Assembly (NCBI GenBank): GCA_903845155.1
Contig: CAIMWN010000314.1
Span: 1 to 33,397, forward strand
DNA: 33,397 nt
Source of the DNA: Oligoflexia bacterium
GTDB taxonomy: Bacteria > Bdellovibrionota > UBA1018 > CAIMNF01
Reading direction: 5' to 3'
Each line of letters opens with the position of its first letter. Position 1 is the first letter of the stretch. A model generated the notes under the pieces. The model ran no database searches. It had not been told where the DNA came from and saw only the letters and a program-made list of their open reading frames with translations. This document shows positions 3,301 to 28,580 of the stretch, one piece after another. The translations under genes were made by a program, and so were the position numbers.

Positions 3301-3327
3301 TTGCGTGCATTTAGGAAGTATTTTTTT

Positions 3328-6024
3328 ATGATTAGGGGTTTTATTTTAAGCCTTATTCTAAACGCTTGCTTCGTGCAATCTTCCTTCGCTGCCTCCGTAA
3401 CAACATCCCCTTCACCGAGCATCTCAAACAGTTCTGTTTTTTGTTGGGGCGATAGCCTGACCGAGGGTTACGATGGCACGCTCAATACCCTCACGACCTC
3501 TTACCCTACTGATTTAGCCAACCTCATTCAACTGCCCGCTTTGACTGAGGGCTTTCCTGGACAAGACTCCACTTATATTTTAAATCAATTACAAAATTAT
3601 ATTTCAAATACAAATCCAAATTACAACTACAGTACGGTCATTTGGGTTGGACGAAATGATATTAATGAATTGTATACCAATAATATTACAGACCCGACCG
3701 CAATAGTTGGAAGAATGCAAACACTCTACAGCAACATTGCACAAATGGTTAAACTCGCAAATACTCCGAATTACATCGTTCTTGGCGTGACAAACGCAAG
3801 CGCTTTAGCGCCCGCTCAAACTGAAGTTAAAGGTAAGCCCATGTATAACACCATTCTGGGCATCAATCAGTACCTCGCAAGTCAATATGGATCTCATTTT
3901 GTTGATGTGAGAAAATACCTGGTGAACCGTTACGATCCTACGCAACCAAACGATGTCTTAAGCATTCAAGACGACACGCCTCCTGCTTCGCTCATGTCTG
4001 ACCATGTTCATTTAAACGCAAGGGGATACGCAGTCGTTGCAATGGCTGTTTTTCAAAATCACACCCTCTCTCCTCCCATTCCGGGTGACGTGAATAATGA
4101 TGGCTCGGTTGATTTCTATGATGTAGTTGCACTCAAAACGATAATCAAAAATTATGATTTCAATAAAAGTGGCTCGGTAGATTCAACCGATGTAGCCCTA
4201 CTGCAAAGTGCGATTGCGGGTAATCAAACTGCCCAATCCTTAGTCTGTAACGGAGCCACTTATCCTTGCAGCCTCATTGATTTTAATCACAATGGTGTAA
4301 TTGATACTACAGATGTCACTCAACTCCAAAGCATAATTACTGAATCCGATATGACTGGCGACAAAAAACTAAATGATGACGATGTCCAGATTATTTATAA
4401 AATGGCTTCTGGGATTGGCCCGACTAACCCCATGTATGCTGTTCCAACAGGAACAGATTATCTCATTCAAGCCGAAGACACGAGTACTGATACGACACTG
4501 CTCCACAAGTTTCTCTATGTAAGTAAAGCGGGCAGTAACAGTGAGTCCGCTGATCCGAGTTCAGTTTATTACAATATGGGAGAAGCAAATAAAGTTTTAG
4601 ATTATGCCATCATTTCTGGTACAGGCCCTTTTACCCTTCAAATTACGAAATTAGGATCATCGGCAAGTTCCGCCCTCATCCGTCCAGCACGACTTGGCAT
4701 CGGAACAGTGAGTGCAACGACTTCAAGTTTAGGAAGTAGCGTTACTATTACATTGAATCAACCCGCAAAGCTAACAGTTGAATTTAACGACGATCCTAAC
4801 GATCTCGATCAACTCGCCTTACTCGTTCATGCGACCGAAGTGAATATTCCAAGCTCGACTGCCACAACTGTTTTTAATGCAATAGCCCCGAGCTACCTCT
4901 CTTTATCTTCATCCACTAATAATTCATCATTAAACACGCTTAGCCCATCCTTCACTACCGTTTACTTTCCACCCGGTGTGCACGAAGTGGGACGTTGGAC
5001 GATCCCTCCAACAGTAAATGAAGTATATTTAGAAAAGGGCGCCTATGTACGTGGCTATTTTGATGCCTTCCGTACAAATAACACCCCCATAAATATCCAT
5101 GGGCGAGGGATATTAACAAACGATACTTACGCGTTTCATTCGGGAGCTGTGACGAGCCCTACCGCACTTCTAGACACTTGGTTTACTCTGAATCTCAGGG
5201 GGTCAATGTATGGTGATGCTTCAGTTAAAGGAAATGTTGTGGATGGGATTACGATCGCAGATTCCTCTGATTATAATTTGTCTTTTCAAGGCTCAAATTC
5301 CAGTGTCACAGATATCTTTCTTCATGGCTGGCAATTCAATAATGATGGCATCCACATCAGTGGAGCGAACAATTTAATCAGCAATGTTTTTTTTCATGTG
5401 AATGATGATCAAATTGCGCCAGACAGTAACGTCAGTAACCTCACCATTCAAAATTGTACATTCTGGTCAATGGTCGGTGGATCAGTTCTACAACTCGGCT
5501 GGTGGCCTCATTCCATTAATACGATACTCTTTCAAAATTCGGACCTCATCCATCAGGAGTGGAATCTTTCCGTTCAAGCAGGAGCGCTCATCAGTGGAAT
5601 CAATACTCAAATTGGAGACATTCCTCAACCCGTTCCACTCGTTCAAAACATAACCGTAAAAAATATCAATCTGGATGTTCCTGTCACTCGTTTGATCGAT
5701 CTTAGCCATATTCGAAATAACGCTCAAGGACCACTTACGACTTATGTCGTGAACTACTCCAATTTTTCATTTTCGAATATCAACCTTAACAATCAAGGCA
5801 CCATCCAAAATCCGCTTATTTTCTTAGACAATCAAACTTATTCACAACTGAACAATTCAAATCAGCTGCAAAACTTCCAAGGACTAACTACCGGATTTAC
5901 CTTTAAAGGTCTCATGATCAATGGCACAGACATGGGTAGTTCCACACTTTTAAATTCCATGAACCTGCTTAAGCTTAATACTTATTCAGGTGGAAGTTTA
6001 CCGAGTGTAAGTTTTTCTCCGTGA
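3328..6024 (+). CDS. Secreted SGNH esterase - dockerin-like - GH49 dextranase fusion
   Basis: An exported protein of 898 residues. The frame opens at a TTG at 3301, but the ATG at 3328 has AGGAAG 9 nt upstream and gives a clean signal peptide (MIRGFILSLILNACFVQSSF, cleavage after AFA). Residues about 35-240 are an SGNH/GDSL hydrolase: GDSLTEG with Ser43, a GRND block with Asn110, and Asp225/His228 in DHVHLNARGY. Residues about 252-360 carry dockerin-like or EF-hand-like calcium loops (GDVNNDGSVDFYDVV and relatives). From about 380 comes a beta-sandwich and then, from about 540, a GH49 parallel beta-helix. FHVNDDQIAPD (Asp693/Asp694) and FNNDGIHI (Asp673) match the three catalytic aspartates known in GH49 dextranases. 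A deacylating esterase joined to an alpha-glucan hydrolase is inferred. It converges with 6236-6589. Confidence 0.85.
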   Translation: MIRGFILSLILNACFVQSSFAASVTTSPSPSISNSSVFCWGDSLTEGYDGTLNTLTTSYPTDLANLIQLPALTEGFPGQDSTYILNQLQNYISNTNPNYNYSTVIWVGRNDINELYTNNITDPTAIVGRMQTLYSNIAQMVKLANTPNYIVLGVTNASALAPAQTEVKGKPMYNTILGINQYLASQYGSHFVDVRKYLVNRYDPTQPNDVLSIQDDTPPASLMSDHVHLNARGYAVVAMAVFQNHTLSPPIPGDVNNDGSVDFYDVVALKTIIKNYDFNKSGSVDSTDVALLQSAIAGNQTAQSLVCNGATYPCSLIDFNHNGVIDTTDVTQLQSIITESDMTGDKKLNDDDVQIIYKMASGIGPTNPMYAVPTGTDYLIQAEDTSTDTTLLHKFLYVSKAGSNSESADPSSVYYNMGEANKVLDYAIISGTGPFTLQITKLGSSASSALIRPARLGIGTVSATTSSLGSSVTITLNQPAKLTVEFNDDPNDLDQLALLVHATEVNIPSSTATTVFNAIAPSYLSLSSSTNNSSLNTLSPSFTTVYFPPGVHEVGRWTIPPTVNEVYLEKGAYVRGYFDAFRTNNTPINIHGRGILTNDTYAFHSGAVTSPTALLDTWFTLNLRGSMYGDASVKGNVVDGITIADSSDYNLSFQGSNSSVTDIFLHGWQFNNDGIHISGANNLISNVFFHVNDDQIAPDSNVSNLTIQNCTFWSMVGGSVLQLGWWPHSINTILFQNSDLIHQEWNLSVQAGALISGINTQIGDIPQPVPLVQNITVKNINLDVPVTRLIDLSHIRNNAQGPLTTYVVNYSNFSFSNINLNNQGTIQNPLIFLDNQTYSQLNNSNQLQNFQGLTTGFTFKGLMINGTDMGSSTLLNSMNLLKLNTYSGGSLPSVSFSP

Positions 6025-6235: not shown

Positions 6236-6589
6236 TTAGGTATGATCATGATCACAGTCATCACCTGCATGTGCATGCTTGTGTTTTTCTTTTTCATGAT
6301 TGCGTTCATGGTTTTCTAAATCACACATCCCATGAACTCGCACAAATTCCTGAATACCCCGAAGTAGAGCTTGAGCCACTTCTACCTCTGGTACTCGGCC
6401 TTCATCGTAAGTCACCAAAGCATTCCTGGTGCGATTGCTATAAGCTTCTAGCTTTGCAGTTCCAACTCTACCAATTTCACGCCGGAGGTAGTCGGCCAGA
6501 ATTTCATCACCTTGAAAACCCAAGTGAAACCGGATTCTTCCGGGAACGTAAGATACCACGCTCACTGCGTTAAACATTTCTTCAATCAT
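6236..6589 (-). CDS. HMA-like metal-binding protein with His-rich tail
   Basis: A 117-residue cytoplasmic protein. Residues about 10-80 resemble the HMA_2-type ferredoxin-like fold (VSYVPGRIRFHLGF at the start, NALVTYDEGRVP near the end). That fold is found as an accessory domain with metal transporters, and this copy lacks the classical CxxC motif. The last 25 residues alternate His, Glu, Lys and Asp (for example HKHAHAGDDCDHDH), a likely zinc or nickel-binding tail. It begins 1 bp after the ZIP transporter stop, so both come from one mRNA. A chaperone, buffer or sensor for the transporter is my inference. A longer antisense frame overlaps it but has no support. Confidence 0.72.
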   Translation of the reverse strand: MIEEMFNAVSVVSYVPGRIRFHLGFQGDEILADYLRREIGRVGTAKLEAYSNRTRNALVTYDEGRVPEVEVAQALLRGIQEFVRVHGMCDLENHERNHEKEKHKHAHAGDDCDHDHT

Positions 6590-6590
6590 C

Positions 6591-7328
6591 TTAGTGGGAC
6601 CTCATCATGAGTTCGGTTAATGCGAGACCGAGAAAGACCCAAACTAACTCTATTCTTCGTTTCCGAATCTGATTAAAACTCGGGATTAAAAAGTCAAACA
6701 CCATACAGCCGAGTAACGTACCCAGCGCAAAGCTCGTGGCAAATATTGCAAGATCGAGATTAATTTGTTCATTAAACAACGAAGCAAGCATTGCTCCAAA
6801 AGGAAAGGAAAGTGAATAAAGTACGATACAAAGGACGGCATTAAATCTTGTTTTTGCCTTATCTAAAACAATAGAAGAAACAATGAGCGACTCGTAACAT
6901 TTATGGGCGATGAGGGCTAAGAAAACTGCATGACTAAAACTTTCACTCACCTTTGCTGAAATCACGAGTAAAATCCCGCTAGAGATACAATGGATCATCA
7001 TGGAAGTCAGAAAAACAGTGATCCCTTTATCTCCCACATGAAGATGATTTTCATCTTCAGAATGATGATGCGACTTATGATGTCGGTAGTGCAATAAATG
7101 GATGATGGAATAAATTACCCAAACACAAAAAACGAGAACTAAACTTTTATTTCCACCCATCTCTACGACATCGGGCATCAGATCAAAAGACACAATTCCT
7201 ACCAGCGCTCCCGTACCCACCAAAAAGAGCAAGCGGGAGATCTGCGTCACGTGCTTAAAAAATATCGGCAAACAACACAGTGCGATCATCATCAGTGAAA
7301 TGATGGTAGTTTGAAGAAGTAAACTCAT
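6591..7328 (-). CDS. ZIP-family metal importer
   Basis: A 245-residue inner-membrane protein with about eight hydrophobic segments, the size and topology of ZIP-family divalent-metal transporters. The long His-rich loop (HHKSHHHSEDENHLH, residues about 85-100) between membrane helices 3 and 4 is typical. The metal-site helices are recognisable: HCISSG in helix 4 and HKCYES in helix 5, variants of the family's H-x-x-x-x-G and H-x-x-x-E signatures. The substrate is most likely zinc, though iron or manganese cannot be excluded. AGGA lies 6 nt before the ATG. The gene leads the operon with the His-tailed HMA-like protein and sits 48 nt downstream of a predicted Fur-family operator (7376-7393). 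Confidence 0.85.
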   Translation of the reverse strand: MSLLLQTTIISLMMIALCCLPIFFKHVTQISRLLFLVGTGALVGIVSFDLMPDVVEMGGNKSLVLVFCVWVIYSIIHLLHYRHHKSHHHSEDENHLHVGDKGITVFLTSMMIHCISSGILLVISAKVSESFSHAVFLALIAHKCYESLIVSSIVLDKAKTRFNAVLCIVLYSLSFPFGAMLASLFNEQINLDLAIFATSFALGTLLGCMVFDFLIPSFNQIRKRRIELVWVFLGLALTELMMRSH

Positions 7329-7375: not shown

Positions 7376-7393
7376 AATGCGAATGATTTGTAT
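7376..7393. promoter_or_regulatory. Predicted Fur-family operator (box C), ZIP/regulator intergenic
   Basis: AATGCGAATGATTTGTAT matches 15 of 18 positions of box B (10448-10465). Its core is a 7-1-7 inverted repeat, TGCGAAT-G-ATTTGTA. It lies 48 nt before the ZIP start and 85 nt before the regulator start, so it could control both divergent genes. An 8-bp inverted copy of its left half (GCGAATGA at 7379-7386, TCATTCGC at 7401-7408) may form a second half-site. Confidence 0.6.
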
Positions 7394-7467
7394 TAGCTGC
7401 TCATTCGCGTCTGCAGACGTCTTACATCCAACTGTTTTATAAAGCTTTTTATAAGTCATTCCGATAA

Positions 7468-7483
7468 GCTCATTGCAATGAGC
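7468..7483. promoter_or_regulatory. Perfect palindrome over the regulator start codon
   Basis: GCTCATTGCAATGAGC is a perfect 16-bp palindrome with the ATG of the Fur-family gene (7478-7480) in its right arm. No clear Shine-Dalgarno precedes this ATG. The palindrome could be an autoregulatory operator or an mRNA hairpin hiding the start. It may equally be coincidence. Confidence 0.4.
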
Positions 7484-7939
7484 AAAAAAGCCGTCGTTAA
7501 AGAAAAAACCGTAAAGACATTAGAGACCCTTTTTCAAGAGATGAAAAAAAACCATCTGAGAATGACCGGACCACGGAAGATGATCATTGAGGCTCTGTTT
7601 GAAAACCATGGCCCTTTCACTGCTGAAGAAATCCATAAAAAATTTATTCGCTCTTCATGTGACCTAGCCACCATTTACAGATGCTTAGTGAGCCTTGAAC
7701 AAGCAGGGCTAGTCAGAAAATGTGAATTCGGTGATGGTTTCGCCAGATATGAATTGGCGAATAACGATCAATCCCACCACCACCACCATTTGATTTGCAC
7801 CGAATGTAAAAAGGTAGAAATTGTAGAAGAGTGTGAAATCGAAAGTCACATTGATCGGTTCGCCAAGAAGCGGGGCTTCACGAGCGTCTCTCACATGCTG
7901 GAGTTTTTTGGCATCTGTCCTGACTGCCAAGCCGCTTAA
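7478..7939 (+). CDS. Fur-family metal-responsive regulator (Zur-like)
   Basis: A 153-residue Fur-superfamily repressor. Residues about 22-95 form the winged-helix DNA-binding domain (RMTGPRKMIIEALF, then ATIYRCLVSLEQAGLV). The dimerisation and metal domain follows with HHHHHLICTECKKVE and GICPDC; the two CxxC pairs form the structural zinc site of the family. Family level is secure. Zur rather than Fur is suggested by the adjacent ZIP importer and His-rich accessory protein. It is divergent from the ZIP operon and convergent with the receptor gene 18 bp away. It probably binds the three 7-1-7 boxes described here. The ATG used has no good Shine-Dalgarno; an internal ATG at 7541 is a less likely start because it would trim the first helix. 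Confidence 0.9.
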   Translation: MSKKAVVKEKTVKTLETLFQEMKKNHLRMTGPRKMIIEALFENHGPFTAEEIHKKFIRSSCDLATIYRCLVSLEQAGLVRKCEFGDGFARYELANNDQSHHHHHLICTECKKVEIVEECEIESHIDRFAKKRGFTSVSHMLEFFGICPDCQAA

Positions 7940-7957
7940 ACTTACACCGCTATTGAA

Positions 7958-10387
7958 TTAAAGTTCTTTCGTGAGTCTTAAAAACAACTCGCGTCCTGCA
8001 GCATAGTGAGATCCATTGAATCCATTTGCGACCGTAATTGGATATAAAGTATCAAAGATATTGAGAAGATCCATTGAAACCTTGGTTTTAGATAACCATG
8101 ATTCATTACTAAAATCATAACCCACACTCGTATCAAAAGTTAAATGGCAAGGGAGGTTCAGAGAATTATTAACCCCAGTTCTGAGCCCACTACCAAATAG
8201 CCCTTCTCCCGTCCACCACCATGAGTTCTTCTTATAGATCACCCCTGCATTCGCAGTATGCACTTGAACATGATCTAAAAACTGGTACCCACCCGTATCG
8301 GGGCTCGTTCCAGCAGGGAAGGAAAAGAGCCCCCCACTGATTCCATTTCCCTTTGCGATCTCGTAAGAGTAGTTGGCATAATCCGACCATTCCTCGTTGA
8401 TTTTCCCGTTGATCGAAAACTCCACTCCATAAGCATACCCGTCGGCAAAATTATAAGGTTGTGCAATAGAAGTATTCAACAACTGACTATCATCAAGCAT
8501 ATCTTTCGCTTTTTTGTAGTAAGTATTAATGGTGACTACGTGATCACTCATTTGCTGGCTAATACCGAGCTCGTAATAGTTGTCTTTCTCGGCTTTGATA
8601 TCATACGGAACGAGTGAATTTCCCGCCCCGGTATTCACAAACGTATCCCTCAAATTCTCAACCGGTGCCGGCTGGAACAGAAGACCGTAAAAAATATGTA
8701 ATTTGGTAGTATCCGTGACCATGTAGCTCAAACCAATTCGTGGTTCAATCCACGAGTCACTGGTCGAATCAGTAGAAAATTTGAATTGAGTGGCATCTAC
8801 TCTTACTCCAGCATTCAAGATTAGTTTTTTAGTGATACTAAAATCGTCTTGTACGTACAAACTCTCAAGGTACCCAGTATCATTGCTATTGTCTGAGCTA
8901 GTGACTGCAGCGCTGCCTTGTTGTTGTGTAATGACGGTCAGTGGGCCACTCGATTTTGACTGTTGTACTTGAAACCCGATCTTCAGGAGATTTCGGTCAT
9001 TGAAGCGATCCGAATAGTCGCCCTTCAAGCCAAAGTTATTGGTACTTTTATTTTCAGTAAAACTGGAAGGATTACTTCCTACAATGCCACCCGCATTTGC
9101 CGCATAGAGATCATTTGTGGGATCATTGGTAATGTGAATATTTGAATATTTATAATAAGGCGCCAATTGTAAAAACGAATGGGCATCAAAACTATGTTTC
9201 CACACCACTTGAGTGTATGCATTCGTTTCAGCCTGAGTGTCATCCGTCCCAGCGGGCACATAGTTCAACGGACCATTTCCCCAGCGATCAGAATACCCTT
9301 GATTAAAAATAGGGCTGGTAGGTCCAAAGGAAGATGGGAAATTAGGAATCTGGAAGAAACTATAAGCATGGTAAGCAATCATGGAAAGTTTATCGTCGTT
9401 TCCAAGTTGCCAGTCGAGCTTAACAAACTGGTCGTTACCATTGCTTTGATCGTGAATCGCCTCTGATGTACCCTGAGTCACATCATTCACACTGACGGGT
9501 TGTGGAGTATCGAGTCCACGATCTGTTTTGTTGTAGCTAGCAGAAACATAATAATGCAAATGGCCCGACTCTGTTGAGCCGCTGTAATTAGCCTGTGGAG
9601 TAATGGTGTTATAAGCACCGTATCCAACTCCTGCACTTCCACCCGGTACTTCAGAACCTGTCTTTGTAATAATATTTACCACCGCAGCTAATCGCTCACC
9701 GTACTCTGCAGGAATTCCACCCGTGATGACTTCCATGTGATCAATATTTCTTGGGCTAAAAGCTTGTCCAAAAGTATTGGAGGGAGAGTCAGGAAGTTGA
9801 ACTCCATCAATTTGATATTGAATGTTCGCATGATTCCCACGAATAAAAGTTTGCCCGAATGGCCCTTGGATAATCCCAGGGGTGGTAGTTGCAAGAAGCT
9901 TCGGAAGTTTGATATCGTCGCCCTGGGGAAGCTTTTGAATCATCTCTTTATTGATTTCGCGCGTGCTTGAAGGGGCAGATCCGCTCACTAAATTCTTTTT
10001 AGCTTTTACTTTTAGGGTTAGTACTTTGTCATTGCTTTGGGTGCTCGTGGCAGAATGCGAGGAAACAAGCTTCGCATTGACTTGAGCAGCGCCACCCGAC
10101 GCGAGATGAACTTCGGTTTTAAAGGGAGTAAAATCTTGCGTGTCCACTTGAACTGTATAATCGCCAAAATCGAGGGGAAACACTTCGAAATCTCCCGAAG
10201 CACCGCTCATGACCTTCCCCACTTGCTTTTTCTCACTATTGAAGACCTGAACTTGAACTCCGCTAATAGCAATTCCTTGTTCATCAGTGACACTTCCAGA
10301 AATTGACCCAGCGGTTCCTGCATAAGCAGTTAACGTCAAAAAGAACACACCCATCATCAAGCAATAGTTTTTAAAGTTCATATTCAT
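7958..10387 (-). CDS. TonB-dependent outer-membrane receptor, probably for metal
   Basis: An 809-residue outer-membrane receptor. A signal peptide (residues 1-23, ending AYA) is followed by a carboxypeptidase-regulatory-like beta domain (about 26-105; SGSVTDEQGIAISGVQVQVF). Next comes the plug (about 135-250; GQTFIRGNHANIQYQIDGV, then VVNIITKTGS), then a 22-stranded-type barrel to the end. The C-terminus is LFLRLTKEL, without the usual final Phe. Divergent transcription from exbB-exbD-tonB gives the receptor its own energiser. Two predicted Fur-family boxes lie in the 126-bp gap, box A only 15 nt from this start. A metal or metallophore substrate is inferred from context. The ATG at 10387 or the in-frame one at 10381 may be used; neither has a good Shine-Dalgarno. 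Confidence 0.9.
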   Translation of the reverse strand: MNMNFKNYCLMMGVFFLTLTAYAGTAGSISGSVTDEQGIAISGVQVQVFNSEKKQVGKVMSGASGDFEVFPLDFGDYTVQVDTQDFTPFKTEVHLASGGAAQVNAKLVSSHSATSTQSNDKVLTLKVKAKKNLVSGSAPSSTREINKEMIQKLPQGDDIKLPKLLATTTPGIIQGPFGQTFIRGNHANIQYQIDGVQLPDSPSNTFGQAFSPRNIDHMEVITGGIPAEYGERLAAVVNIITKTGSEVPGGSAGVGYGAYNTITPQANYSGSTESGHLHYYVSASYNKTDRGLDTPQPVSVNDVTQGTSEAIHDQSNGNDQFVKLDWQLGNDDKLSMIAYHAYSFFQIPNFPSSFGPTSPIFNQGYSDRWGNGPLNYVPAGTDDTQAETNAYTQVVWKHSFDAHSFLQLAPYYKYSNIHITNDPTNDLYAANAGGIVGSNPSSFTENKSTNNFGLKGDYSDRFNDRNLLKIGFQVQQSKSSGPLTVITQQQGSAAVTSSDNSNDTGYLESLYVQDDFSITKKLILNAGVRVDATQFKFSTDSTSDSWIEPRIGLSYMVTDTTKLHIFYGLLFQPAPVENLRDTFVNTGAGNSLVPYDIKAEKDNYYELGISQQMSDHVVTINTYYKKAKDMLDDSQLLNTSIAQPYNFADGYAYGVEFSINGKINEEWSDYANYSYEIAKGNGISGGLFSFPAGTSPDTGGYQFLDHVQVHTANAGVIYKKNSWWWTGEGLFGSGLRTGVNNSLNLPCHLTFDTSVGYDFSNESWLSKTKVSMDLLNIFDTLYPITVANGFNGSHYAAGRELFLRLTKEL

Positions 10388-10401
10388 TTGAAATATTACA
10401 G

Positions 10402-10419
10402 ATGCAAGTCATTTGCAAT
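10402..10419. promoter_or_regulatory. Predicted Fur-family operator (box A), upstream of the receptor
   Basis: ATGCAAGTCATTTGCAAT; on the minus strand its core TGCAAAT-G-ACTTGCA is a 7-1-7 inverted repeat with 6 of 7 pairs, the best of the three boxes. It is 15 nt upstream of the receptor ATG, where a bound repressor would block transcription. Confidence 0.65.
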
Positions 10420-10447
10420 AACATTAGTGGTAACCACGGGAATAATG

Positions 10448-10465
10448 ATTGCGATTGATTTGCAT
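10448..10465. promoter_or_regulatory. Predicted Fur-family operator (box B), upstream of exbB
   Basis: ATTGCGATTGATTTGCAT lies 49 nt before the exbB ATG at 10514. It shares the core with boxes A and C and points opposite to box A. The frame of exbB is open across this site, which is one reason to reject the upstream start at 10388. Confidence 0.62.
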
Positions 10466-10513
10466 GTAAGGTGCGCCTATTCTAGCTTAAGCACTAAGAT
10501 CGAAAGGCAAATC

Positions 10514-11134
10514 ATGCACACACTTATTTCTATTACCGAATGGATTACTCATGGCGGATTCATGATGATTCCGCTTCTATTTTCAGCTTTTGTAGCCCTC
10601 ACGGTAATTTTTGAACGACTCTACTTACTCAAGAAAAAATACCATTTACCACGCGCGTCAATCGCGGGAATTAAAACTTCCTTAAGCAAAGGCAATCTTC
10701 AGGATTTAAAAAGCATCCTCGAAGGCAGCGAAAGCCCCATCGCCGCAGTCCTCCATGAAGGACTTGCATACTATGATACGTCAACCGATGAATTAGAAAG
10801 AAGAATGTCAGATGAGGCACAACGATGGATTCCTAAACTTGAAAAACGTCTAGAAATTTTGGATACCATCATCACAGCAGCCCCTCTGATGGGGCTTTTG
10901 GGAACGATCACAGGAATGATGTCATCTTTTCAAGTGTTATCCACAAAAGGGGTGAATGAACCAAATGCAATCACGGGAGGTGTAGCTGAAGCCCTGATTG
11001 CTACCGCAACAGGACTGATAATCGCTCTTGTTTGCCTTCTCGCTTATAATTATTTTAATTCATTAGTAAGACAGTATGTCCAAAGCATTGAAGATGCCGC
11101 AAACCTTGTAATTGAAGCAAAATTAAGAAAATGA
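10514..11134 (+). CDS. exbB: ExbB, proton-channel subunit of the TonB energiser
   Basis: A 206-residue MotA/TolQ/ExbB-family inner-membrane protein that, with ExbD, turns the proton gradient into work by TonB on outer-membrane receptors. It has an N-terminal membrane helix (GGFMMIPLLFSAFVALTVIF), a cytoplasmic stretch (ERRMSDEAQRWIPKLEKRLE), and the conserved pair of helices starting TAAPLMGLLGTITGM and ending GLIIALVCLLAYNYF. The frame is open from 10388, but the ATG at 10514 has AAAGG 6 nt upstream and gives the normal family N-terminus, whereas the extension covers both operator boxes. It overlaps exbD by ATGA. First gene of exbB-exbD-tonB, divergent from the receptor. Confidence 0.93.
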   Translation: MHTLISITEWITHGGFMMIPLLFSAFVALTVIFERLYLLKKKYHLPRASIAGIKTSLSKGNLQDLKSILEGSESPIAAVLHEGLAYYDTSTDELERRMSDEAQRWIPKLEKRLEILDTIITAAPLMGLLGTITGMMSSFQVLSTKGVNEPNAITGGVAEALIATATGLIIALVCLLAYNYFNSLVRQYVQSIEDAANLVIEAKLRK

Positions 11135-11544
11135 AAATTGAACGCAAACCATTAAAAAAAGCACGCATTGAAATCATTCCCATGATTGATGTGATTTTTT
11201 TTCTGCTCGTGTTTTTCATGATTTCATCTTTGGCGCATGAGAAATTTAACAGTGTCCCAGTCAATCTCCCGAAGACTGCGTCCAACCCTAATTCCATTCC
11301 ACAAAAAATTACCCTCACCATAGAAAAAACAGGGGACCTTTACCTAAATAAAAATAAAATCACGCTTGAAAGTCTTTCAGAAACACTCGCCCATGTGATG
11401 CGAGACATGCCGGACGAAACAGTCATTATCAATGCTGATCAAGGGGTTAATTACGGTTTAGTCATGTCTGCAATGGATGAAGCTAAAAAAATTGGAGTAA
11501 GAAAATTCGCGCTTCTTTCTCAGTTTGAAAGAATGAAGAAGTAA
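11131..11544 (+). CDS. exbD: ExbD, TonB energiser subunit
   Basis: A 137-residue ExbD/TolR-family protein. It has a short basic cytoplasmic N-terminus, one membrane helix (IEIIPMIDVIFFLLVFFMIS) with the conserved proton-carrying Asp in MIDVIFF, and a periplasmic domain containing a TIEKTGDLYLNKNKI strand and the VIINADQGVNYGLVMSAMD segment typical of ExbD. Its start overlaps the exbB stop, and its own stop directly abuts the tonB ATG, so the three subunits are made in tight coupling. Confidence 0.93.
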   Translation: MKIERKPLKKARIEIIPMIDVIFFLLVFFMISSLAHEKFNSVPVNLPKTASNPNSIPQKITLTIEKTGDLYLNKNKITLESLSETLAHVMRDMPDETVIINADQGVNYGLVMSAMDEAKKIGVRKFALLSQFERMKK

Positions 11545-12156
11545 ATGAGGTTCAGCGCTAAAAAAAATACCGATACTCATTTTGATGATCTCAGCCTCCT
11601 CATTCGTTGTGCGATTATCGCTGCCTTGGTTGAATTGAGCTTCATCTCAGTTGCCGGAATGCACTTTCCCACATTTTCGTCTGAGCCGCCTCATCCATCT
11701 GCCGAGGCAATGGAGGCAGAAGTGATCACACTTCCAGAAGAGCAGCCCAAACTCGTTGCTCAAAACGCCGAGCCCAGTGCACCGGAAGAAACCATTGCGA
11801 AAAAAGATGCTCCTCCCACGAATGCAAATCCAAAAACTCTGACTGGGCCCACCTCTAATCGAGTAGAAAAGGGAAAGCCGCTTTCTCCTACCCATGGACC
11901 CATTCTCATTGAATCACCTTCACCCGTCATCCCTGAATACTTAAAGAACAAAGACCTCAATAGTAAAGTGGTGATTGAATTTGTAGTTCAAGCAACTGGA
12001 CAAGCTACACCTCACTTGCTGGTTTCTAGCGGGGAAGAAGAGCTCGATCAGATCGCTCTTAGCACTGCAAGTAAGTGGAAGTTTTACCCCGCAGAATCTG
12101 AGCACGTAGCAATTGATTCAAAAATTAAACTCAGGATTCTATTTGAAGTAAAATAA
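11545..12156 (+). CDS. tonB: TonB-family energy transducer
   Basis: A 203-residue TonB-like protein. A membrane helix lies at residues about 12-32 (LIRCAIIAALVELSFISVAG). A Pro/Glu/Ala-rich periplasm-spanning region follows, and then a C-terminal domain from about 125 (VIPEYLKNKDLNSKVVIEF, ending KIKLRILFEVK) in the standard TonB fold. The spacer is short for TonB. The ATG follows the exbD stop with no gap. It presumably serves the adjacent receptor. Directly downstream are a 28-codon frame and a decayed cation exporter, which may once have belonged to the operon. Confidence 0.88.
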   Translation: MRFSAKKNTDTHFDDLSLLIRCAIIAALVELSFISVAGMHFPTFSSEPPHPSAEAMEAEVITLPEEQPKLVAQNAEPSAPEETIAKKDAPPTNANPKTLTGPTSNRVEKGKPLSPTHGPILIESPSPVIPEYLKNKDLNSKVVIEFVVQATGQATPHLLVSSGEEELDQIALSTASKWKFYPAESEHVAIDSKIKLRILFEVK

Positions 12157-24042: not shown

Positions 24043-25071
24043 ATGAAATCGTCGACACAATATATTGCTCTCACACTCGCTACTTCACTCATCCTTTTTG
24101 GATGTAAAACGCTGCCAACCCCGACCACCAATAATGGCTGCGCACCTGCTGGAACGGGAACCGCGCTTTCAACACCAGGTGGCGCATCAGGTAGTGGAAC
24201 AAACTCAGGAGTAGGAACCAACACGGGGACCGGCACTGCCACTTGTACTAACACCGGCACTGATACCGGCACCGGCACCAACACCGGAACAGGCACAAAC
24301 GGAAATAGTTCACCGAGCACTGGCTCAGGCGGTACGCCTGCATCTACCTATGGCGTCGCTGTATCCGTGGCACAAAAATTAGTGCTCGATCAATTTATCT
24401 CTGTTTTTGAAAACTCAACCACCACTTTGCAATATGCATACGTGGAAGCATTGAATGATGGCCGTGGCTACACCGCAGGCCGTGCGGGCTTTACGTCGCG
24501 CGACGGTGATATGTTACAAGTCATACAATATTACCTCACCCTTAACCCAAGCTCTCCACTGGGTTCACTCATTCCCACTTTGCAAAAGCTGAACTCGAGT
24601 GACAGCGGCTCCATCACCGGACTCTCTTCTCTGCCTACACTGTGGGCGCAAGCTGCTGAAGACCCAGCATTCAGAGCGGCACAAGATAAAATATCAGATC
24701 AACTCTATTACATACCCGCGATGCAAAGAGTAAAAACACTAAATCTGAAAACACAAATTGGGGTACTCGCCATGTACGATGCCTCCATTGAGCACGGTGT
24801 AGACGGAGTTGATGGTGTAGACGATATGATCAGCAAAATGGGAAATCTTTCTCAATACGCTACAGAGACCGAACTTCTTACCGAGTTCTTAGCCATCAGA
24901 CGTGAAACACTCTTAGACCCGGCCGATCCAAGCACTCAAGAAGAATGGAGCCAATCGGTGGGCAGAGTAGATACTCAGTCGGCTATTCTGAAGGCAGGAA
25001 ATCTAGAACTCATCACTCCTCTCACCATTGATCCATTCGGTGATACTTTCGTGATTGGCTCTACTCCTTAG
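24043..25071 (+). CDS. GH46 chitosanase lipoprotein
   Basis: A 342-residue exported lipoprotein (lipobox LILFGC, Cys21). Residues 25-105 are a Gly/Thr/Asn/Ser-rich linker with GTNTGTGT-like repeats. Residues about 107-340 are a glycoside hydrolase family 46 domain: FENS with Glu123 and NDGRGYTAG with Asp139 match the acid and base residues known in Streptomyces chitosanase (Glu22, Asp40), though the spacing is two residues shorter. Other family blocks are AAEDPAFRAAQDKISDQLYY, GVLAMYDASIEHG and a terminal VDTQSAILKAGNLELITPL. It should cut chitosan or partly deacetylated chitin outside the cell. Three GVD units follow EH in the substrate-loop region. Convergent with the PD40 gene, 3 bp apart. 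Confidence 0.9.
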   Translation: MKSSTQYIALTLATSLILFGCKTLPTPTTNNGCAPAGTGTALSTPGGASGSGTNSGVGTNTGTGTATCTNTGTDTGTGTNTGTGTNGNSSPSTGSGGTPASTYGVAVSVAQKLVLDQFISVFENSTTTLQYAYVEALNDGRGYTAGRAGFTSRDGDMLQVIQYYLTLNPSSPLGSLIPTLQKLNSSDSGSITGLSSLPTLWAQAAEDPAFRAAQDKISDQLYYIPAMQRVKTLNLKTQIGVLAMYDASIEHGVDGVDGVDDMISKMGNLSQYATETELLTEFLAIRRETLLDPADPSTQEEWSQSVGRVDTQSAILKAGNLELITPLTIDPFGDTFVIGSTP

Positions 25072-26405: not shown

Positions 26406-28580
26406 ATCCACACCTTTTTTTTGATCCTTTTAGCATCATTTTCTATGATCGCGGCCCCTTTTGCGCAAGCTCAAGATCTCGATATTATTAGGGATCACTT
26501 TAAATCAGAAATCTTCGAAAGTATTCCGCTTGAAGGCCGAGCAACGTGGGCCCTAAAAGACATTAACGAATTTCAAGCCTATCAATCTCCCGACGGGAGC
26601 TATAGTGACCTCAATTACCTTGATTCCTCTGCTCTCAACTGGGGTCCCGTCATCACACTTGGCCGCGCGCTCAGCATGATCATGGCAACCCAAGTTCCAG
26701 GTCATGTGCTTTTTCATCATCAAAAAACAGAAGACGCTGCCCTAAACGCCATTCGCTTTGTCGCGCGATCCAATTTCTGGCACTACAACTGGTGGATGAT
26801 GGAGATCGGCGTTCCACTAACCACTTATAAAATCCTTCTGCTCATTGAACCTAAACTCGATGCACTTTCTCGCGATTACTTAATGGACGCTACTTACAAG
26901 GGACACATCACCGAACATCCAAGTCAATGGTCTGTGGCAGGGCAAAACTTGGTATGGTATGCAGAGATTACTATCGCCCTTGGTGTTTTATACAAACGCC
27001 CCGATTGGGTGAATACTGCAGTCGCCGCTCTCTCTAATCAGATACTAATGGGCCACAATCAAGGGATTCAAGCTGACTATACCTTTTTCCAACACGGCCA
27101 ATTATTTTACTCGGGCAGTTACGGCCTTGCTTTTTCAAATGATACTTCGCGAATGTTTCGTCTTATTTCGGGGACAAAGCTTTCCTTTAGCGATGAGAAC
27201 TATCAAACATTGAGCCACTATATATTGGATGGTCAACTTTGGCTCATTCATGGTGCAACGATTGACGTGAGTTCAATGGGCAGAACCTATGCCCGTATCA
27301 ATGATGCAAAATCTGATCGACTCCTACCTGCGTGTCACCTCATGGCAAAGGTAGTGGGCACTCGTCAAAAGGAATTTGTCGAATGTGAACGACGCCTCAC
27401 CGAAGGAACCGAGAACGGACGCGATGGTAATCAGCATTTTTGGAAAAGCGATTTCATGGCTCACAATCGACCCGGGTATGGCATTTCAGTGCGGATGGAT
27501 TCTACTCGTACGATGAATGCCGATGCATCGCCTATGGGCGAAGGACTAAAATCAGAACACCTTGCAGATGGACTTACTTATATCTATCGTACCGGAAAGG
27601 AATATTTTAATATCTACCCACTGTGGGATTTTAAACGACTACCCGGTACCACGACCGAATACCAAGCAGTTTATCCTAGCGTACCCAACAGCGATTATTT
27701 TCCAAAAAATGGCGAAACAGAATTTGTAGGCGGAGTGTCTGATGGTAACACGGGTGCCGCTGCCATGGATTTTAGAAAAGGAAGATTAAGCGCAAAAAAA
27801 TCGTGGTTCTTTTTTGAGAAAGGGATGGTTGCGTTGGGCGCAGCTATTCATTGCGAAGGCTGCCTCCCAGTGAATACGACGTTGAATCAGGAATGGGCTC
27901 AAACACCAATTCAATACTCTTTTAAAAACCAAAGCAATAGAGTGGCATCATTAAGCGAGGGCAAAGCAAGTGCCAATAACCTCGCATGGGCACTAGCCAA
28001 CGGTACGGGCTACCTTTTTCTTGATCATAACAATGTGACTCTTCAAACGACCGAACAAGTGGGAAGTTGGAAATCACTTGCGGTACAACTTTCGGCTGAT
28101 CCGGTGAAAGGAAAAGTAACGAGCCTTTGGATTGATCACTGCTCAAATCCACTTCACGACTCTTATGCTTATGCCGTGTTACCGAATATTAGCGAAAAGG
28201 ATCTGCAAAAAGACGCACTTCAGCCGCCATTTTCAATACTCGCCAATACTGAAGAAATCCAAGCTGTAGAATTTAACAAGGAAAAATCAATACAGGTCAT
28301 CTTTTACAAAGCAGGCACCCTCACCTTCAATGAAGGTAAGTCGTGGATCAAAGTAGATGCTCCGCTAGCTCTTCAATTTAGATTTTCTATAGAAAAGAAT
28401 TCGCTATCGGTATCAGCTCCCAATCAAAAAGTGAGCACCGCGAAGATTTCCTGGCATATCGAACATTATGGAGCAGGGTCCAAAACCATCCTCTTCCCCA
28501 AGAGCCAATATGCCGGACAGTCACAGACCCTGGTACTGCAAGGACTGATGAATCGCTTAGGCCAATTCCTTCATTTATAA
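26406..28580 (+). CDS. PL8 polysaccharide lyase with unusual ATC start
   Basis: An exported polysaccharide lyase of family 8 (hyaluronate/chondroitin AC/xanthan lyases), about 724 residues. The alpha-toroid part shows FWHYNWWMMEIGVPLTTYK, GQNLVW (Asn181), FFQHGQLF (His230) and SGSYG (Tyr239), equivalent to the catalytic Asn, His and Tyr of family members, and SSMGRTYAR. A beta-sandwich part follows. Numbering is from the ATC at 26406. No ATG fits: the TTG at 26421 lies 19 nt from the GGAGG at 26397-26401 and would leave a signal peptide without a basic or polar start. The ATC is 4 nt after GGAGG and gives (M)HTFFLILLASFSMIAAPFAQA. Either a rare ATC start is used or the start codon has mutated from ATG. 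Confidence 0.85.
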   Translation: MHTFFLILLASFSMIAAPFAQAQDLDIIRDHFKSEIFESIPLEGRATWALKDINEFQAYQSPDGSYSDLNYLDSSALNWGPVITLGRALSMIMATQVPGHVLFHHQKTEDAALNAIRFVARSNFWHYNWWMMEIGVPLTTYKILLLIEPKLDALSRDYLMDATYKGHITEHPSQWSVAGQNLVWYAEITIALGVLYKRPDWVNTAVAALSNQILMGHNQGIQADYTFFQHGQLFYSGSYGLAFSNDTSRMFRLISGTKLSFSDENYQTLSHYILDGQLWLIHGATIDVSSMGRTYARINDAKSDRLLPACHLMAKVVGTRQKEFVECERRLTEGTENGRDGNQHFWKSDFMAHNRPGYGISVRMDSTRTMNADASPMGEGLKSEHLADGLTYIYRTGKEYFNIYPLWDFKRLPGTTTEYQAVYPSVPNSDYFPKNGETEFVGGVSDGNTGAAAMDFRKGRLSAKKSWFFFEKGMVALGAAIHCEGCLPVNTTLNQEWAQTPIQYSFKNQSNRVASLSEGKASANNLAWALANGTGYLFLDHNNVTLQTTEQVGSWKSLAVQLSADPVKGKVTSLWIDHCSNPLHDSYAYAVLPNISEKDLQKDALQPPFSILANTEEIQAVEFNKEKSIQVIFYKAGTLTFNEGKSWIKVDAPLALQFRFSIEKNSLSVSAPNQKVSTAKISWHIEHYGAGSKTILFPKSQYAGQSQTLVLQGLMNRLGQFLHL

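Follow-up and report, generated by a model that had tools for sequence, protein, structure and literature searches.

A candidate Zur regulon linking a ZIP permease with a TonB-dependent receptor and its energiser in a Bdellovibrionota genome

Three copies of a 7-1-7 palindrome lie in gaps between divergent genes of the 33,397-nucleotide contig analysed here in full (the window), one between a ZIP permease gene and a Fur-family regulator gene and two between a TonB-dependent receptor gene and exbB. From comparison with related genomes, it is highly likely that all three serve as operators for the Fur-family protein encoded next to them, acting as Zur. The features of the locus are:

6236..6589, minus strand: small HMA_2-like protein with a His-rich C-terminus (Pfam HMA_2 E=7e-5, below the gathering cut-off)
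6591..7328, minus strand: metal permease of the ZIP family with a distant likeness to ZupT (Pfam Zip E=1e-10; the NCBIfam ZupT score, 33.7 bits, falls short of the cut-off)
7378..7392, plus strand: candidate Zur box 1, TGCGAATGATTTGTA, in the ZIP/zur intergenic region (matrix score 16.0 bits, window rank 3), centred about 57 bp before the ATG of ZIP and 93 bp before that of zur
7478..7939, plus strand: putative zur, a Fur-family metalloregulator of 153 aa (Pfam FUR E=1.2e-27; two CxxC motifs, HHHH and an extra Cys119)
7958..10387, minus strand: TonB-dependent receptor with an N-terminal CarboxypepD_reg domain (Pfam; same-order orthologues)
10403..10417, minus strand in the orientation of the preliminary description: candidate Zur box 2, TGCAAATGACTTGCA, directly upstream of the receptor gene (24.8 bits, window rank 1)
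10450..10464, plus strand: candidate Zur box 3, TGCGATTGATTTGCA, upstream of exbB (17.7 bits, window rank 2)
10514..11134, plus strand: exbB (MotA/TolQ/ExbB family; Pfam E=1e-33)
11131..11544, plus strand: exbD (Pfam E=1e-29)
11545..12156, plus strand: tonB (Pfam TonB_C E=2e-10)

A preliminary description of this DNA had reported three 18-mers, and the sequence read-out recovered them letter for letter: AATGCGAATGATTTGTAT at 7376, ATGCAAGTCATTTGCAAT at 10402 and ATTGCGATTGATTTGCAT at 10448, with cores at 7378-7392, 10403-10417 and 10450-10464. The 7-1-7 spacing of Fur-superfamily operators and the placement in the two divergent intergenic regions, ZIP/regulator and receptor/exbB, likewise proved to be as it had claimed. 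With this palindromic half-site and its spacing, and with their place in promoter regions next to zur, the boxes belong to the TGCAA-N5-TTGCA class of Zur boxes. Box 3 overlaps a candidate -35 element (TTGATT, with TATTCT 17 bp downstream), and box 2 lies within the spacer of a receptor promoter candidate, TTATTG-17-TAATAT; these elements were read by eye and are weak, and a strict promoter scan, whose list does not contain them, gave no promoter that clearly paired with the boxes. A TTG-started reading frame at 10388-11134 seemingly covers two of the boxes, but we regard it as a mechanical over-extension, the ATG at 10514, behind a Shine-Dalgarno-like GAAAGG, being the likelier start of exbB. 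The HMA_2-like gene lies 1 bp downstream of the ZIP gene and is apparently co-transcribed with it.

Two further gene groups of the window were recorded. A large protein encoded at 3301-6024 on the plus strand has a dockerin type I match (35.6 bits, cut-off 22.9) after its GDSL lipase domain; to our knowledge, dockerins would not be expected in this lineage. Genes for a family 46, chitosanase-type glycoside hydrolase and for a polysaccharide lyase of family 8 lie near each other (24043-25071 and 26421-28580), which suggests polysaccharide breakdown.

The exact TGCAA-N5-TTGCA palindrome was present in all seven genus relatives with a clear regulator orthologue (G003, G005, G006, G007, G009, G010 and G011), where it stands in front of genes in the regulator's cluster or in the gaps between them. 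In an unbiased enumeration of all 11,264 palindromic 5-N(0-10)-5 patterns, scored by presence per locus, this pattern was the most widespread in the genus loci (7/7), and it again came first in 69 further zur loci, mainly from Verrucomicrobiota with Bdellovibrionota and a few others, where it occurred in 49 and the runner-up, a G+C-rich pattern, in 28. These counts support two points of the preliminary description, namely that the box would be conserved in relatives and that the adjacent Fur-family protein is its likely ligand.

In G070, from another family of the same order, receptor, zur and ZIP genes are adjacent; one box precedes the receptor and another lies between zur and ZIP, an arrangement that matches the anatomy of the window. 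The position corresponding to box 1 is also boxed there (L197:10203), and receptor orthologues in G070, G066, G103 and G019 have a box in front of them, as counterparts of box 2. In the latter three genomes, which also encode the regulator, strong boxes lie at or just before the receptor starts; their receptor loci adjoining exbBD-tonB carry no strong box, although the receptor paralogue is boxed. No regulator orthologue was found in G004 and G123, and their receptor/exbB loci are without a good box. An exception is G167 (82% complete), where a 15-bit box is present and the regulator was not found. The co-occurrence of box and regulator among receptor loci would support the link between them, but the numbers are small and we take it as supportive only. 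No box was detected near the zur loci of three other members of the order (G087, G106 and G110). This, like the receptor loci of G066, G103 and G019 that adjoin exbBD-tonB and carry no strong box, counts against the Zur reading. As separate observations, the congener G004 retains only a decayed half-box, AAATGCAATTGAATTGAGTGG, in its receptor/exbB gap (L196, 10298), and its receptor, exbBD-tonB and ZIP are 68-70% identical to those of the window, with no Zur orthologue detected; G070 has a second Zur-like gene (L235, G070:C32) with two more boxes (9241 and 9785) on the flanks of genes for small secreted proteins and an ABC transporter, possibly an additional metal-uptake cluster.

The regulator belongs to the Fur superfamily, with Pfam FUR (PF01475) matched at E=1.2e-27 over residues 25-143. 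Its structural zinc site, C107/C110 and C147/C150, is conserved in nearly all of 85 relatives, and it keeps the HHHH stretch, His139 and Glu92, the last of which appears to be the retained equivalent of E. coli Fur Glu81. Some Zurs use Cys at this position, and characterised Zurs have a Cys ligand in the regulatory site. Beyond the CxxC pairs, Cys119 occurs in 76 of 85 clade members and is absent from the other Fur-family protein of the genome; it could be a ligand. PDB matches include the Zur proteins of M. tuberculosis and Streptomyces. Among NCBIfam models, none of the curated ones scored above its cut-off: the nearest were those of Fur and PerR, and the enterobacterial Zur model NF008646, which is a convenience test and does not define all Zurs, came fifth with 39.1 bits against a cut-off of 167. 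This ranking and the apparently retained Glu92 both weigh against a Zur. The genome encodes two Fur-family proteins; the second, on contig C74, is 29% identical to the regulator, and no box was found around its gene on that contig. In the tree, the regulator grouped with same-order sequences (support 99/98), and this placement does not support a horizontal gain of zur from Verrucomicrobiota.

The case for zinc comes largely from what the box and zur adjoin in relatives. In Verrucomicrobiota, zur is the last gene of a znuA-znuB-zur cluster whose box stands where znuA begins. In genus relatives, the box precedes either a ZnuD-type receptor or a porin-znuA-znuB cluster; the best PDB match of this receptor is ZnuD (E=8e-48; next 8e-12), which is also its best NCBIfam match. 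In G149, of the same order, a box lies between zur and the gene for type B L31, followed by paralogues of L24, L28 and S14 with no cysteine or one, and a further box stands in front of a gene that scores above the cut-off of ZigA, a zinc metallochaperone GTPase. Zinc-free ribosomal paralogues, ZigA and the like are classical zinc-starvation targets (review PMC6103462). Zinc-uptake and zinc-sparing genes are thus linked to the box through relatives (znuA-znuB, ZnuD-type receptor, type B L31 and ZigA), and because of this linkage zinc is strongly favoured, where the preliminary description had left the choice of metal open; the regulator is most likely a Zur. Inside the window, the ZIP gene is the only recognisable zinc-type target. 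The window receptor had no PDB match at E<=0.001 and is not ZnuD-like by sequence.

We also considered that the boxes might be iron operators, with either the local protein or the second Fur-family protein (C74) serving as an iron-responsive Fur and keeping a siderophore receptor and the associated TonB system repressed. Consistent with this, a Magnetospirillum Fur binds this palindrome and was crystallised on it (PMC4506495), the window receptor's best NCBIfam match is TonB-siderophore, below cut-off, and the equivalog models nearest to the regulator are those of Fur. However, the regulator orthologues are tied to zinc genes as described above, the second Fur-family gene is distant and has no box found around it on its contig, and a ZIP permease would be an unusual partner for siderophore uptake; an iron regulon is accordingly unlikely. 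It is very unlikely that manganese, nickel or cobalt is both the signal of the regulator and the cargo of the receptor and ZIP: ZIP permeases are promiscuous, as are ZnuA-like binding proteins, and manganese models score nearly as well as zinc models on the relatives' substrate-binding proteins, which by themselves do not separate the two, but the ZnuD, type B L31 and ZigA neighbours indicate zinc.

The boxes recognised by Zur as proposed here are also statistically distinct from their surroundings. The 15-mer of the preliminary description, allowed up to two mismatches, gave 4 window matches against 1.68 expected, which is not significant; its zero-mismatch matches are circular because the consensus was derived from the same three sites, and we discarded it as a scan tool for both window and genome, given this circularity and its excess of background matches. 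With an independent matrix, its 56 training sites all taken from other genomes, the three boxes took ranks 1, 2 and 3 of all window positions (24.8, 17.7 and 16.0 bits), the next-best position scoring 12.8 bits, and under a Markov null even the weakest box, at 16.0 bits, is expected 0.13 times per 33 kb. Scanning the genome with the relatives' consensus TGCAAATNATTTGCA at up to two mismatches, a setting that weaker sites elsewhere could escape, yielded 45 sites. Given that number, three sites inside 3.1 kb have a Poisson P of ~5.5e-6; the remaining 42 lie nearly all inside genes, and neither a site before a response regulator gene (C100) nor one between convergent genes (C284) was accepted as a target. 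The preliminary description had suggested looking genome-wide for hits at zinc genes; no ZnuA was detected in this genome, and its sole L31 gene has no box. Chance occurrence of look-alike sites in A+T-rich intergenic DNA, for which the plain consensus scan and the many similar, mostly intragenic sites might speak, has a practically negligible probability in view of the foreign-trained ranks and the clustering, and is already refuted by the boxes at corresponding positions in relatives.

The boxes at the ZIP and receptor/exbB gaps support the earlier proposal that metal import across both membranes is united in one compact regulon. When zinc is sufficient, zinc-loaded Zur dimers would sit on the 7-1-7 palindromes over the promoters and repress the ZIP-HMA_2 operon, the receptor and exbB-exbD-tonB, and zur itself would probably be autoregulated by way of the lone box between ZIP and zur. 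When zinc becomes scarce, Zur would leave, and the outer-membrane receptor, its own energiser and the inner-membrane ZIP permease would be made, the presumed substrate of the receptor being zinc, free or chelated. A search for Zur targets from the gene side of the genome gave only marginal CobW-family matches. The sole L31 gene (G000:C276:6000-6236, L237) encodes the Cys-free type B form, and this zinc-sparing form appears to be constitutive. The predicted Zur regulon of this genome appears confined to one locus, comprising the ZIP and HMA_2-like genes and the CarboxypepD_reg receptor with ExbB-ExbD-TonB. We tentatively raise the possibility that this receptor, served by an ExbB-ExbD-TonB of its own, represents an undescribed type of outer-membrane importer for zinc or a zinc chelate, which together with ZIP replaces ZnuD/ZnuABC under a Zur with C119 in a variant sensing site.

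Taken together, the locus is very probably a well-supported, ordinary member of a known Zur system with a mildly unusual set of target genes. The same kind of regulator and box would control different zinc importers in neighbouring genomes, and an otherwise unplaceable family of TonB-dependent receptors in this Bdellovibrionota lineage gains a likely role in zinc uptake. One Zur operator type, TGCAA-N5-TTGCA, spans Bdellovibrionota and Verrucomicrobiota and, according to the literature, also Clostridia and Desulfovibrio, and the matrix can be used to annotate zinc regulons in these groups, which are little studied and for the most part uncultured. A literature search, with most subscription journals outside its reach, returned no description of such a regulon in Bdellovibrionota or Verrucomicrobiota.

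The suggestion that the operator is lineage-specific has to be abandoned, since the same box has been published for Desulfovibrio and Clostridium thermocellum and is present in the Magnetospirillum Fur crystal. In C. thermocellum, DAP-seq of Fur_1691 (Zur) gave the motif TGCAAATcATTTGCA at a zinc ABC operon (PMC8457756, 2021). This protein is likewise of the Fur family, its palindrome and spacing are identical to those of the window and its top target is the zinc ABC transporter; however, the organism is Gram-positive, the target is an ABC importer and there is no outer-membrane receptor or TonB system. The Desulfovibrio Zur_D sites, ATGCAACNNNGTTGCAT, predicted in 2004 upstream of znuABC-zur (PMC545781), have TGCAA-N5-TTGCA in common with the window but differ in their central bases (CNNNG), and are a prediction only; the authors treat Zur_D as a separate branch. 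In the work on the feoAB1 operator, the Fur of Magnetospirillum gryphiswaldense was crystallised on TTAATTGCAAATCATTTGCAATTGC (PMC4506495), and the likeness to the window's boxes lies in a Fur-family dimer on TTGCAAATCATTTGCAA; this Fur, however, is an iron regulator, and the crystallised palindrome is three changes away from the native TTAATCGCAACTCATTCGCAATTGC. In Caulobacter and Pseudomonas, Zur co-controls outer-membrane receptors and inner-membrane zinc import as proposed here (PMC4176598, PMC6103462), but with other Zur boxes and with znuABC and ZnuD-type receptors, whereas the window combines ZIP with a non-ZnuD receptor that has its own ExbBD-TonB.
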